Below are positions 58,474-64,000 of a stretch of DNA of 64,000 nucleotides, one piece after another. The notes beneath the pieces are model-generated. The model did no database searches and had not been told where the DNA came from. It saw only the letters and a program-made list of their open reading frames with translations. The position numbers and the translations under genes were made by a program. How positions within the stretch are numbered: position 1 is the first letter of the stretch; the number at the start of each line of letters is the position of its first letter. Source of the DNA: Bacteroidales bacterium (GTDB taxonomy: Bacteria; Bacteroidota; Bacteroidia; Bacteroidales; JAADGE01); the NCBI GenBank assembly GCA_021108035.1, contig JAIORQ010000055.1:1-64000 (forward strand), in the 5' to 3' direction.

Positions 58474-60555
58474 TTAATGTAAACCCATTAATGTTTTCTT
58501 TTGTAAATATAAGTAAGTATCAATTTGCGCCCTGTATAAATTGTCTCCATCTTTAAAATTTTTATCAATATTGTTTATATCTATATCAAGAAATTTTGCT
58601 TTTGTGTTGTCTTTTAATTGAATTTTCAGGATTGAAATTATTTCATTAATGAGTTGTTTATCATAAATCGGTATTATAGATTCAACTCTTCTTCTTATAT
58701 TTCTTGTAAGAAGATCTGATGATGAAATATATACCTCCCAATTACCGTCATTATAAAAAGCATATATTCTGGCATGTTCCAGAAATCTGTCAACTATTCT
58801 TGTTATTTGTATATTTTTACTGTATGGTTTTCCCGGTCTTAATTTGCATATTCCTCTGACAATCAAATCAATATTAACATTTTTTTCTCCGGCATTATAC
58901 AACATATCAATCATTTCTTTATCGCCGAGTCCGTTCATTTTAAAAATTAAATATGCTTTTTTCCCTTCTTCGGCATTCCGGATTTCTCTGTTGATTTTCT
59001 CTTTGAAAACATCAAGCATATTAAATCTCGGAACAAGAATATCTTTGAAGTTGTATCTTTCAATAGGTGTTTCCAGATACAGAAATAATTTTTTAAGATC
59101 TTTTATGATATTAGTATTTGCTGTAAAAAAACCTTCATCTGAATATTGTGTAGCGGTTTTTTCGTTAAAATTTCCGGTACTTAAGAATGCATATCCGGTT
59201 TTTTTGTTTTTTTTCTTATCTGATTTTTTTATTACCAATGCTGCTTTTGCATGCACTTTTAATCCCGGTATTCCGGCAATTACATTAATGCCTGCTTCTT
59301 TCATTTTTTCAGCAAAATAAATATTTGCTGCTTCATCAAATCTTGCTTTAACTTCTACAAATACAGTAACATCTTTACCGTTTCGGGAAGCTGTTATTAA
59401 TGCATTTACAATTGCTGAGTTTGTTGCAACTCTGTATTGTGTTGTTTTTATTTCTTCTACATCGGGATCAACTGCAGCTTCGCTGAAAAATCGTAATACA
59501 TAATCATACGTATGGTATGGAAAATGTAATAAAATATCATGTTTTTCAACTGCTTTCAGAATTGAATCATATTGGTCAAGTATAGGATGATTAAGTTGTT
59601 TTAAAGGTTCTAATTCGTATTTTGGAGATAAAGGATTTTTAAAATTAAAAAAATCACTGAAGTTTAAATATCTTCCTACAGAAACAAAATCGTTATCAGT
59701 TAAATTAAATGCAAGTTTTAATACTTCGATTAAATCTTTCGGCATTTCTTTATCGTAAAGGAATCGTGCAGGAATGCCTGTTTTTCTTTGTTTAAGACTT
59801 TTTCTGAGTTTATTTAATAAATTACCCGAAAACTCATCTTCTATCATTAAATCGGCATTTCTCGACAATTTAATACTATATGTTGAATCAATATCATAAC
59901 CGGGAAAAATAACAGGTAAATATTTTCTGATAATATCTTCAAGAAACATAATTAAATATTTACCTTTTAATTTCGGAAGATATATAAAACGTCCCATTGT
60001 GTCCGACGGAACTTGAATAACCGCATAATTAGCCTTTTTTTCATTAATCCTTTTCTTTTTCCATAATTTTATGGCTATATATATTTTATTATCCTTTAAG
60101 AACGATAAAACATCTCCTGAACTTGATAATAAAACCGGCTGAATTTCCGGTAAAAGTTCTTTGAAAAAGAAGTCTTTTAAAAAAGTCAGATGCAGTTCTT
60201 CCAATTCTTGATCTCTGTACAGAATAATTCCGCAATCATCAAGCTCCGGAATTATTTGATTATAGAACTCATTTTCATATTCTTTTTGCCTTTCTGAAAC
60301 TTCTTTTTTTATATATGTTAAAACTTTTTCAGGTGAATATTCAAGTTTCTTAAAGTTTTTCTTTGGAAGATCTATAAGGCTCCTGTGATAAGCAACTCTT
60401 ACGCGATAAAATTCATCTAAGTTTGATGAATAAATAGCGAGAAATTTGATTCTTTCAAACAAGGGCAGGTTTCTGTCTTTAATTTGCTCCAATACCAATC
60501 TGTTGAATGACAGCCAACTTAATTCTCTGTTATAATATTTGTTTTCATTGCTCAT
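58474..60555 (-). CDS. ppk1: polyphosphate kinase 1
   Basis: Ppk1 reversibly polymerises the gamma-phosphate of ATP into polyphosphate at the membrane. Visible: N-terminal YYNRELSWLSFNRLVLEQ and FLAIYSSNLDEFYRVRV; the head domain; then the two PLD-like catalytic domains with the autophosphorylated histidine in GLKVHAKAALVIKK (about 433) and the second active-site histidine in FLEHARIYAFYNDG (about 591), plus EVKARFDEAANI and TGNFNEKTATQYSD. 693 residues, full length. Its start overlaps the stop of the solenoid-channel gene by 4 nt, so the two are translationally coupled. No exopolyphosphatase (ppx) is next to it. Confidence 0.94.
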   Translation of the reverse strand: MSNENKYYNRELSWLSFNRLVLEQIKDRNLPLFERIKFLAIYSSNLDEFYRVRVAYHRSLIDLPKKNFKKLEYSPEKVLTYIKKEVSERQKEYENEFYNQIIPELDDCGIILYRDQELEELHLTFLKDFFFKELLPEIQPVLLSSSGDVLSFLKDNKIYIAIKLWKKKRINEKKANYAVIQVPSDTMGRFIYLPKLKGKYLIMFLEDIIRKYLPVIFPGYDIDSTYSIKLSRNADLMIEDEFSGNLLNKLRKSLKQRKTGIPARFLYDKEMPKDLIEVLKLAFNLTDNDFVSVGRYLNFSDFFNFKNPLSPKYELEPLKQLNHPILDQYDSILKAVEKHDILLHFPYHTYDYVLRFFSEAAVDPDVEEIKTTQYRVATNSAIVNALITASRNGKDVTVFVEVKARFDEAANIYFAEKMKEAGINVIAGIPGLKVHAKAALVIKKSDKKKNKKTGYAFLSTGNFNEKTATQYSDEGFFTANTNIIKDLKKLFLYLETPIERYNFKDILVPRFNMLDVFKEKINREIRNAEEGKKAYLIFKMNGLGDKEMIDMLYNAGEKNVNIDLIVRGICKLRPGKPYSKNIQITRIVDRFLEHARIYAFYNDGNWEVYISSSDLLTRNIRRRVESIIPIYDKQLINEIISILKIQLKDNTKAKFLDIDINNIDKNFKDGDNLYRAQIDTYLYLQKKTLMGLH

Positions 60556-62546
60556 CTTAATATTTTTCGTACAAATGCAACGGTGAAGTATGACATTAAA
60601 AACAATCCTACAAAGCCTTCAATTGAAGAAATCCATCTTGCAATACCGTCAGGATAATAATCTCCGTATCCGATTGTAAGAAAGGTTATGGCACTGTGAT
60701 AAAATGCCTTTCCTATTGATCCTAATGCTTTGGGATCATTTGGTTCAAATATTGATGAAACTATATGAACATCTCCTAATTTACCGAGAATAATATATAT
60801 TAAGGTAAACAGGATATATGTTATAAGCATGGTAAATAAAACTCTTAAAGGATCTGTGGCAAATTTTCCCATCTTATCAAAAATAAGCCATTTAAAAGCA
60901 TATTTTGTATATGCCCAAAATTTTAATTTAGGTTTTTTAACGATATCATTTCTTAAATGTGAAATTGCTTCTGCTCTTTTAAACTCTACATATGCTTCAT
61001 CTTCATAAGAATATTGTCCTGTTAAATTAAAATTCTCTTTTAGTATTCTGAATTGCTCTTCTTTGCTTTTGTCGGCAGTATCTTGATTATATATTAATTG
61101 CTTGAGATTTGTTCTTCTCCAATCAATATAAATTCTTCCGAGAAGTCTCATTCCGGAAAGATCAATTGCTTTAATTTCAGGATCGAAACCGGGAGGATTT
61201 ATATCGAGAATATCTTTAACAACCGTATTTGAAAGATCAAGCATTTCGCATGAAGTAATCCGAAGGTCAAAATAGTTATCAAGTTGTGAACCTCTTAAAG
61301 ACAGGGTTCTGAATACAGATTTATTAAAAGAGATTTTTCCGATTCCGAAGTCAACATTATTAATTTCTACATCGGCATTTTTATAATTTGATTCTTTGAA
61401 ATTAAATTCACCGTTTCCGAAAACGGAATCTTTCATCAAAAATTCACCAATTAAGGTTGTTCCTTCTAAATTAATATCACCTTCTCCAAGATATGTTTTA
61501 TTAAAACTAACTTTTCCTTCACCAAAGTTAACTGCTTTCAGGTCTATTCCTCCGCTTATGAATTTAGCTCTGTCAAATTGGACATTTCCTTTTCCGAACT
61601 CGCAAAAATGAAAGTCAACAATACCTTGCCCGAAAACTGATAATCTGAATGATACAGTTCCGTCGCCGAAATTTGCATTTTTGAAATATATGCTGCCGTC
61701 TCCGAAATTGGTATTGATAAAAGATTTTTTTCCTTTGCCGAAAATTGCACTTGTAAAACTGACTTTACCGGTTTGAAAATCGGCAGATCTGAATGATATA
61801 TCACCGTCTCCAAAAGTAACTTTTTCAAAAGAAGTATCAATTTTCCCGAACTGAACTCTTGAGAAATCTACTCTGCCTTCTCCGAAGTTTGCTACTTTAA
61901 ATGAAATATGATTTGAATTAAATTTTGTATCTGTAAATAAAACATCACCTTCAATAAAATCTGCATTCACAAAGATTATTTTACCTCCGTGAAATTCCAT
62001 ATTCTGAAAGTCTTTCAAGCCGGATGAGAAGATTGCATTTTTAAAAGATACTTCAGCTTCTGAAAATTTTGCTTTATAAAAAATCAGATTATCACATTTG
62101 AATTTAGTATTACTAAAGTCAACAAAATCAGCATAAAATGCTGATCTTGAAAAGTTTACATCCTTACCAATAAAACATGTATTACTAAAATCTACATTGT
62201 TACTTTCAAATAATACATCTGAAAGATCTATATTATTATTTTTATTGTAAAATATTGAATGTGAGGCAGAAAAGTTGGAAAGTATTATTTTTTCAGAATA
62301 GATTTTCGGTTTTAAAAAACTTATATTAAAGTTTTCAATAAAACAATAATCTAATTGAAGTTCACTGTTCTTACTAATGTATTCTTTTATGTAATCTTCA
62401 TTTGCATAACCATAAGATTCTTCATTAATTTTTGTTTTATTTTTATCAAAGAAACTTACAATTGCTGTTTTGGGATAACTTGAGTTTTCTTTTTCAAATT
62501 TTTTATCAAGTATTTCTACTTCAATCTTTTTGAAATATCTTTGCAT
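60552..62546 (-). CDS. potassium channel with an N-terminal 12-residue-repeat beta-solenoid
   Basis: A 664-residue protein in three parts. Residues about 115-410 form at least 20 consecutive repeats, nearly all exactly 12 residues, with consensus FGxGxVSFxxAx (examples FGDGDISFRSAD, FGKGNVQFDRAK, FGNGEFNFKESN): a pentapeptide-like parallel beta-solenoid with an unusual period. Residues about 410-540 hold a short cytoplasmic alpha region (EEQFRILKENFNLTGQYSYEDEAYVEFKRAEA). Residues about 565-660 are a two-helix ion channel: TM1 LFTMLITYILFTLIYIIL, the K+ selectivity filter T624-IGYGD-629, and TM2 ending SYFTVAFVRKI. It is translationally coupled to ppk1 (ATGA overlap). A polyphosphate- or volume-linked potassium role is inference. 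Confidence 0.88.
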   Translation of the reverse strand: MQRYFKKIEVEILDKKFEKENSSYPKTAIVSFFDKNKTKINEESYGYANEDYIKEYISKNSELQLDYCFIENFNISFLKPKIYSEKIILSNFSASHSIFYNKNNNIDLSDVLFESNNVDFSNTCFIGKDVNFSRSAFYADFVDFSNTKFKCDNLIFYKAKFSEAEVSFKNAIFSSGLKDFQNMEFHGGKIIFVNADFIEGDVLFTDTKFNSNHISFKVANFGEGRVDFSRVQFGKIDTSFEKVTFGDGDISFRSADFQTGKVSFTSAIFGKGKKSFINTNFGDGSIYFKNANFGDGTVSFRLSVFGQGIVDFHFCEFGKGNVQFDRAKFISGGIDLKAVNFGEGKVSFNKTYLGEGDINLEGTTLIGEFLMKDSVFGNGEFNFKESNYKNADVEINNVDFGIGKISFNKSVFRTLSLRGSQLDNYFDLRITSCEMLDLSNTVVKDILDINPPGFDPEIKAIDLSGMRLLGRIYIDWRRTNLKQLIYNQDTADKSKEEQFRILKENFNLTGQYSYEDEAYVEFKRAEAISHLRNDIVKKPKLKFWAYTKYAFKWLIFDKMGKFATDPLRVLFTMLITYILFTLIYIILGKLGDVHIVSSIFEPNDPKALGSIGKAFYHSAITFLTIGYGDYYPDGIARWISSIEGFVGLFLMSYFTVAFVRKILR

Positions 62547-62790: not shown

Positions 62791-64000
62791 TCAAATAAGA
62801 TCTTCATCATCTTCATCTACTAATTCAATAATCTCTACATTAATATCAATAAGTTCTTTAAATTTTTTGCCGTCATTAAGCATTGAGATATCTCCGGTAT
62901 TATAAAACCATTCAACATCAACTCTATTATTTTTTGAAATTTCTTCAAGAATTAATAAAATTTTTACTAATTGCCTGTCTGTAGCCGTATTATAATAGTC
63001 GAACTCAAATGATACTTTAGTTTGATCAGCAGGTTCATCTTTATAAATATTCAGCCAATCAATAATTGGTTTAAAAAAACTAACTGCATTTTCGGGTATA
63101 GATTTCCCTTTAAATCTTATAACACCTTCTTTTGAATCAAGAAATATTTCAGGAGTATCATCCTCTTCTTGAATTATGTATTTTTCTAATCCGTCTTTCA
63201 TTTTATTTATATAAATTTTTAATGTAAAGAATGAGAATTTATCATTTATTTTATAAAAATCAAAGTTGAAAGGAGTTTTACTTTTCAATTTAATATCAAG
63301 TAATCCTAATCCCGGGTTTTCATCAGATTCATTATCAAAATTTAATAATGTTTCATTGTAAACATCAGACAGTTGGTCTTCAGTCATGCTGTTAACATTT
63401 TCAAGCTTTTCTTTAAAATCGGTAATTTTATGATTTAATATGTAATTGCCGGAAGTAAATACAAGTTTTTCATCTGTTTCTCTTATATAAAAAATTGCAT
63501 GTTTACCTTTTATATTATTAAATACAAACTCATCAGCGTGATTTACAATATTTTGCAATATTTCAACCATTAGATTAAAAACTTTCATTTTTAAAATAAC
63601 AGTTCCTTGCAATTGGTTTTCAGTGATAGATAAAAGATTTACTAATGTATCTTGAGTAAAGGCACCGATAAAATTTAAAAGAATATTTTCTTGTTCAAGA
63701 ATTTTATGCCTTTTTATTATCCTTTTAATTGATTCTGTATCTTCTACAGCTTCTTTACCGATAAAATCAATTATTTTTGTATGTAAATAGAAAAATGAAA
63801 ATTCATCATTAACCTTTTCAAAATCATATACCAAATTACAACCTGATTTTCGGGCAATTTCAATTAATCCTAAACCGGCACCGCCTTTATCAGAAAATTC
63901 ACCTTCATCCAGAACTTTAAGTGAATATTTTTTCAGTTCTTCTTTATCAAGATCATTTATTTTATCAATCTGTTCCTTTATAGTATCTTGATGAGAATTT
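62791..64000 (-). CDS. partial: tandem SiaB-like kinase modules fused to a SiaC-like (DUF1987) domain
   Basis: The frame is open to the window edge (55 codons beyond a TTG at 63834), so the 5' end is missing; 402 residues are visible. Residues 1-75: the G-box end of one GHKL-type kinase (FSDKGGAGLGLIEIARKSG). Residues about 75-270: a second, complete-looking SiaB/DUF6272-type module with the N-box LQNIVNHADEFVF and G-box ENPGLGLLDIKLKSKTPFNF. Residues about 272-402: SiaC/DUF1987 domain (EDDTPEIFLDSKEGVIRFKGKSIPEN, IDWLNIY, FDYYNTATDRQLVKIL, VEWFYNTGD). In Pseudomonas, SiaB phosphorylates SiaC to control the diguanylate cyclase SiaD; here kinase and substrate would be on one chain. The phospho-acceptor is probably in NTATD by analogy. 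The 244-nt gap to the channel gene is AT-rich and empty. Confidence 0.75.
   Translation of the reverse strand, partial: NSHQDTIKEQIDKINDLDKEELKKYSLKVLDEGEFSDKGGAGLGLIEIARKSGCNLVYDFEKVNDEFSFFYLHTKIIDFIGKEAVEDTESIKRIIKRHKILEQENILLNFIGAFTQDTLVNLLSITENQLQGTVILKMKVFNLMVEILQNIVNHADEFVFNNIKGKHAIFYIRETDEKLVFTSGNYILNHKITDFKEKLENVNSMTEDQLSDVYNETLLNFDNESDENPGLGLLDIKLKSKTPFNFDFYKINDKFSFFTLKIYINKMKDGLEKYIIQEEDDTPEIFLDSKEGVIRFKGKSIPENAVSFFKPIIDWLNIYKDEPADQTKVSFEFDYYNTATDRQLVKILLILEEISKNNRVDVEWFYNTGDISMLNDGKKFKELIDINVEIIELVDEDDEDLI

Follow-up and report, generated by a model that had tools for sequence, protein, structure and literature searches.

The window—the whole stretch of 64,000 nt that was analyzed—covers the first 64,000 bases of the 92,002-nt contig C55 of a draft genome (4.96 Mb, 116 contigs, 95% complete) and ends inside a minus-strand gene that joins two SiaB-type kinase modules to a SiaC-type domain. 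The frame is open from position 62,791 to the end of the window. Upon extension of the contig past position 64,000, it runs on without interruption to its first ATG at contig position 64,329, giving a complete ORF of 512 aa (C55:62791–64329, minus strand). The domain order in this chain is SiaB/DUF6272, SiaB/DUF6272, and SiaC/DUF1987. Pfam finds DUF6272 (PF19788) twice (2e-67; 225 bits against a cut-off of 26.6) and SiaC (PF09345) once, at residues 386–502 (5.1e-31; 107 bits against a cut-off of 24.5), and the NCBIfam model SiaB_fam_kinase (NF038262) likewise matches twice (1.8e-73; 246 bits against a cut-off of 85). The equivalog models of the biofilm system stay below their cut-offs: NF038264 for SiaB with 110 of 225 bits and NF038265 for SiaC with 64.6 of 150 bits. 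Domains other than SiaB, SiaB, and SiaC are not seen in the chain; PAS and PP2C domains are absent from it as judged by Pfam. The domain identities, the duplication, and the single-chain fusion had been claimed in the initial annotation of this DNA, and they are borne out by matches far above the cut-offs—with both N-terminal modules falling inside the SiaB family by NF038262 and DUF6272. A promoter scan at the locus returned nothing exceeding shuffled sequence, and a terminator scan returned a single weak hairpin within the gene. The features of the locus are collected in Table 1.

Table 1. Features of the fused gene and of the two genes downstream of it, in window positions; residues are numbered along the 512-aa chain.
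Feature	Position	Strand	Basis or remark
Fusion gene, window part (residues 111–512 and stop)	62791..64000	-	ORF and Pfam/NCBIfam matches
Kinase module 1 (SiaB/DUF6272), window part	63790..64000	-	whole Pfam match C55:63790-64185
Kinase 1 N-box VEGLQN	residues 67–72 (E68, N72)	-	beyond window edge
Kinase 1 G-box GGAGLGL, residues 149–155	63865..63885	-	nearly invariant, fused and split relatives alike
Kinase module 2 (SiaB/DUF6272)	63226..63594	-	profile match, 103.6 bits
Kinase 2 N-box VEILQN, residues 255–260	63550..63567	-	E256 and N260 invariant
Kinase 2 reduced G-box PGLG, residues 339–342	63304..63315	-	GLG alone conserved, preceding GGA lost
Short linker, about residues 375–386	63172..63207	-	site of stop and SiaC start codon in split relatives
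SiaC/DUF1987 domain (PF09345)	62824..63174	-	profile match, 110 bits
T448, equivalent of P. aeruginosa SiaC phosphosite T68	62986..62988	-	NTAT vs NTSS; PMC7647112
Pentapeptide-type repeat protein with C-terminal Ion_trans_2 (K+-type) channel	60552..62546	-	directly downstream; candidate output
Polyphosphate kinase (PPK1)	58474..60555	-	4-nt overlap with channel gene; candidate output

Two SiaB-type kinases and a SiaC domain in one conserved polypeptide

The fusion gene is present in 20 of the 21 genomes of the window's family (f1): 18 copies are intact, one is cut by a contig end, and one is frameshifted; the single genome without the gene is 70% complete. Each of the 18 intact orthologues is one uninterrupted frame, with identities of 52 to 96%. 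The dN/dS ratios in close pairs lie mostly between 0.01 and 0.16 in all three domains—indicating purifying selection—and a single ratio of 0.49 is based on hardly any synonymous change. A search for the same architecture in other genomes, proposed along with the initial annotation, found it beyond this family as well: among 393 genomes sampled across the order, fused forms turned up in f17, f37, f180, f188, f184, f163, f11, and f175, which makes at least six further families in the order plus a second fused lineage. The carriers of the conserved fusion are a group of mostly uncultured Bacteroidota. In one 71%-complete genome (G017; L020/L041), the fused gene has a frame break inside its SiaC domain; the break is either real or an assembly error.

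Two SiaB-family GHKL modules and a SiaC-type STAS-like domain with a phospho-acceptor Thr lie together in one conserved polypeptide. Each kinase module keeps, without exception across 69 fused and split proteins, the catalytic Glu equivalent to E61 of P. aeruginosa SiaB (PMC7647112) and the Asn of the N-box (E68/N72 in kinase 1, E256/N260 in kinase 2). The motifs named in the initial annotation are all present—GGAGLGLIEIA at residues 149–159, NIVNHADE at 260–267, and PGLGLLDIK at 339–347—but the N-box it had placed between the two G-boxes belongs to kinase 2, and kinase 1 has one of its own. Its ranking of the first G-box as the more canonical of the two holds across the compared proteins, and the two kinases are asymmetric as it had proposed: kinase 1 always has GGAGLG, whereas of the GxGLG ATP-lid box kinase 2 keeps GLG, with varying residues before it (69 proteins). 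Since the G-box of kinase 2 is reduced in the split relatives too, this asymmetry predates the fusion. Kinase 2 also diverges faster, with a mean pairwise identity of 38% compared with 47% for kinase 1 over the whole comparison set, and has 7 nearly invariant columns compared with 20. Given the retained Glu and Asn, kinase 2 may nevertheless be active. In the SiaC domain, T448 fits the motif N-T-x-[ST], and 31 of the 32 fused proteins have a Thr at this position; the counterpart of T448 in P. aeruginosa SiaC is the phosphosite T68 (PMC7647112). A long-branch fused protein of f163 (L123/L141, G790) carries a Lys in place of this Thr and is possibly a degenerate or locked form.

The AF2 model of the orthologue L007, which is 96% identical (pLDDT 75), matches SiaB of PDB entry 6kko with a TMt of 0.83 and SiaC of the same entry with a TMt of 0.88, the latter with a VIA-align Z of 19 to 6kko_D. 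Either kinase module of this model aligns with SpoIIAB/RsbW chains at VIA-align Z values of 10 to 12. Sequence comparison found no solved relatives other than P. aeruginosa SiaB and SiaC (PDB 6kko, 6kkp, 6k4f, and 7e6g). The tandem kinase modelled alone, from 15 sequences, reaches a pTM of 0.76 compared with 0.61 when SiaC is attached. These confidence values suggest a defined packing of the two kinases and a mobile SiaC domain, and they would fit a tandem that corresponds to a covalently joined SiaB dimer—P. aeruginosa SiaB being a dimer (PMC7278518).

Split relatives and the origin of the fusion

The split form, in which a tandem kinase is followed directly by a separate SiaC gene, is common elsewhere in the class, and the kinase stop and the SiaC start codon are then −1 to 21 nt apart. 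The large number of in-frame pairs is partly a selection effect, as the search reads through stops, and out-of-frame pairs also occur; stop-codon readthrough in the split relatives was not upheld for these reasons. In the tandem-kinase tree, 28 fused proteins form one clade together with the frame-broken and the contig-end-cut protein (support 100/99), and four fused proteins of f11 and f175 form a second group. Three fusion/split label changes are needed on this tree, one of them being the frame-broken L041 scored as split. Two fused groups and few changes indicate that the fusion arose once or twice and was then kept in several families. Since other members of the class have the tandem kinase immediately ahead of a SiaC gene of its own, the fusion, which descends from a two-gene operon of tandem SiaB and SiaC, probably came about via loss of a stop codon. 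The fused SiaC domains cluster with the SiaCs of tandem-kinase operons, apart from the genome's solo SiaCs, in a tree that is weakly resolved. A Met at residue 377, from which a free SiaC product might start internally, occurs in 17 of the 18 intact fusions of the family (L040 being the exception) and is missing from most other fused lineages.

The genome of the window (G000) encodes a very large Sia/PP2C network: SiaC domains number 19 and SiaB domains 11, and there are about 36 SpoIIE/PP2C genes, none of which lies on contig C55. The linked PP2C phosphatase that the initial annotation had proposed to look for is therefore lacking, and its suggestion of possibly "opposing" kinase roles is not supported: both modules are SiaB kinases, the chain has no phosphatase domain, and the contig has no SpoIIE/PP2C gene. 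The Sia genes of this genome form a series. C72 and C68 carry a single SiaB and SiaC, C65 has two separate SiaBs and SiaC, C33 combines the tandem SiaB with three SiaCs, C17 combines it with a divergent SiaC, and C55 has the full fusion. The two separate SiaB genes on C65 overlap slightly and lie upstream of one SiaC (L169:6595–8087), an arrangement that is a possible step toward the tandem kinase. The three SiaC genes behind the tandem SiaB on C33 (L005:4576–6956) all carry a Ser (NSSS) for the phosphosite Thr. The operon that most resembles SiaABC in this genome is a row on C68 of a GAF/PAS-SpoIIE phosphatase, SiaB, SiaC, and an ABC-transporter-like gene (L006:2576–9531). Apart from the Sia genes, an ORF on C52 (L174:9947–10999) has a Cas9-like RuvC-I start (MAKILGLDLGTNSIGWAV) and is incomplete at the end of its stretch.

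A proposed single-chain switch and its candidate output

The fused protein is read here, with moderate confidence, as a single-chain SiaB/SiaC partner switch. The two kinase modules would pack as a covalent SiaB dimer, in which kinase 1, with its ATP box intact, would phosphorylate Thr448 of the tethered SiaC. Kinase 2, whose ATP box is reduced, would be a partly degenerate partner that mainly stabilizes or regulates kinase 1 and docks SiaC. Unlinked PP2C phosphatases would reverse the reaction by taking the phosphate off SiaC, and unphosphorylated SiaC would then bind an output protein other than a diguanylate cyclase. The cis phosphorylation of the SiaC domain is plausible, considering the conserved phospho-Thr and catalytic Glu residues. 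However, the linker between the last strand of kinase 2 and the first strand of SiaC is short—about 8 residues—and phosphorylation in trans within a dimer is therefore as possible as in cis.

The fusion could also work like the split operon, the loss of the stop codon having fixed the stoichiometry only, with phosphorylation taking place between chains and no new cis switch. The widespread occurrence in the class of the same tandem kinase with the SiaC start codon so close to its stop, the few fusion/split changes that the tree needs, and the identical motifs in fused and split proteins all agree with this account. Its weak point is that at least seven families, in a clade supported at 100/99, have kept the fusion with almost no reversion; such retention suggests that the link is useful. 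The account is less likely than the single-chain switch. A role as hub kinase for the other SiaCs of the cell, with the protein's own SiaC acting as an autoinhibitory pseudosubstrate or a localizer, would draw on the surplus of SiaC over SiaB domains in the genome, which leaves some SiaCs without an adjacent kinase. It is improbable in view of the phospho-Thr retained in all but one of the 32 fused SiaCs and of the fused SiaC tracking the partners of tandem-kinase operons rather than the solo SiaCs.

The diguanylate cyclase SiaD of P. aeruginosa is switched on by SiaC in its unphosphorylated state, an effect that SiaB blocks by phosphorylating SiaC (PMC8457831, PMC7278518). The kinship to SiaB and SiaC in sequence and fold speaks for a c-di-GMP switch of the SiaABCD type, the system that the initial annotation had invoked. 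However, a profile search for the GGDEF domain comes up empty in the 95%-complete genome itself and throughout the 21 genomes of its family—leaving no GGDEF partner—whereas the same search finds the domain in 8 of 14 control genomes. At this search sensitivity, the missing GGDEF rules out a c-di-GMP output, a diguanylate cyclase of another fold aside, and leaves such a switch very improbable; with many SiaC, SiaB, and SpoIIE genes present, the output must be something else. A frameshift or assembly artefact joining two genes, which the initial annotation had named as one possible refutation, is of negligible probability: the assembly is a draft and L041/L020 has its frame break in the SiaC part, but the open frame is conserved in the 18 family orthologues from separate assemblies and in further families, under purifying selection on all domains, which rules the artefact out.

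For the single-chain switch, the best output candidate—a guess—is the co-oriented downstream K+-type channel or the polyphosphate kinase. That the switch, by phosphorylating its own SiaC, gates the adjacent pentapeptide-repeat channel or PPK1 in these GGDEF-less bacteria is a doubtful proposal. The channel is the next gene in 13 of the 14 loci of f1 that have downstream sequence and in three loci of f180, and in f1 PPK1 comes after it where sequence allows. Beside the fusion, the channel is absent in f17, f37, f188, f163, f184, and f11. The channel was rejected as a general partner, being adjacent in f1 and f180 only; several fused lineages without it at the locus encode it elsewhere, which makes the channel link a lead, not a demonstration. 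In f175, the fusion has neighbours of the MORN-caspase and C1-peptidase families, both of which also flank it in the window's genus. In a single genome of f17 (G036), a response-regulator–adenylate/guanylate cyclase gene lies downstream of the fused gene (L128:4137–5300).

Relation to known kinase–substrate switches

In the literature found, SiaC is characterized only as a diguanylate cyclase activator. A conserved kinase–kinase–SiaC fusion in genomes without GGDEF shows SiaB/SiaC switching to be a more general signaling module with other outputs. The fused gene with the channel and PPK1 genes downstream is a concrete place to seek the output of SiaC, and the repeated split and fused forms offer a natural series for the effect of tethering a kinase to its substrate. 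A literature search for DUF6272, SiaC in Bacteroidetes, and the names SiaB and SiaC returned no paper on a SiaB–SiaC fusion, which is weak evidence from a limited search. The principle of the fusion is not new, as the joining of a GHKL kinase to a STAS domain is already known from Rv1364c of M. tuberculosis.

SiaB and SiaC of P. aeruginosa (PDB 6kko; PMC7647112, PMC8457831, PMC7278518) belong to the same kinase and substrate families as the fused protein and share their folds, with the equivalents of Glu61 and Thr68 conserved. Compared with SiaABCD, the fusion unites two kinase modules with their substrate family in a single chain, lacks SiaD/GGDEF and an adjacent SiaA-type phosphatase, and stays below the NCBIfam equivalog cut-offs. 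The Bacteroidia operons of tandem SiaB and SiaC (for instance L045, L118, and L126; G000:C33) feature the same tandem kinase and the same order, but their SiaC is a separate polypeptide; they are the apparent ancestor of the fusion.

Rv1364c (PDB 3ke6) joins a GHKL kinase of the RsbW type to its STAS substrate, in which the kinase domain phosphorylates Ser600 (PMC9138534), and resembles the fusion in having both partners in a single chain. It differs in its families (RsbW/RsbV), its one kinase module, the PAS and PP2C domains in the chain, and its sigma-F output; without PAS and PP2C in the chain, the fusion is not a member of the Rv1364c-type switches. In SpoIIAB/SpoIIAA and RsbW/RsbV, a GHKL kinase likewise phosphorylates a STAS protein, and the fold matches 1tid, 1th8, and 6m37. 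Unlike the fusion, these systems consist of separate proteins, have a sigma-factor output, and are distant in sequence.
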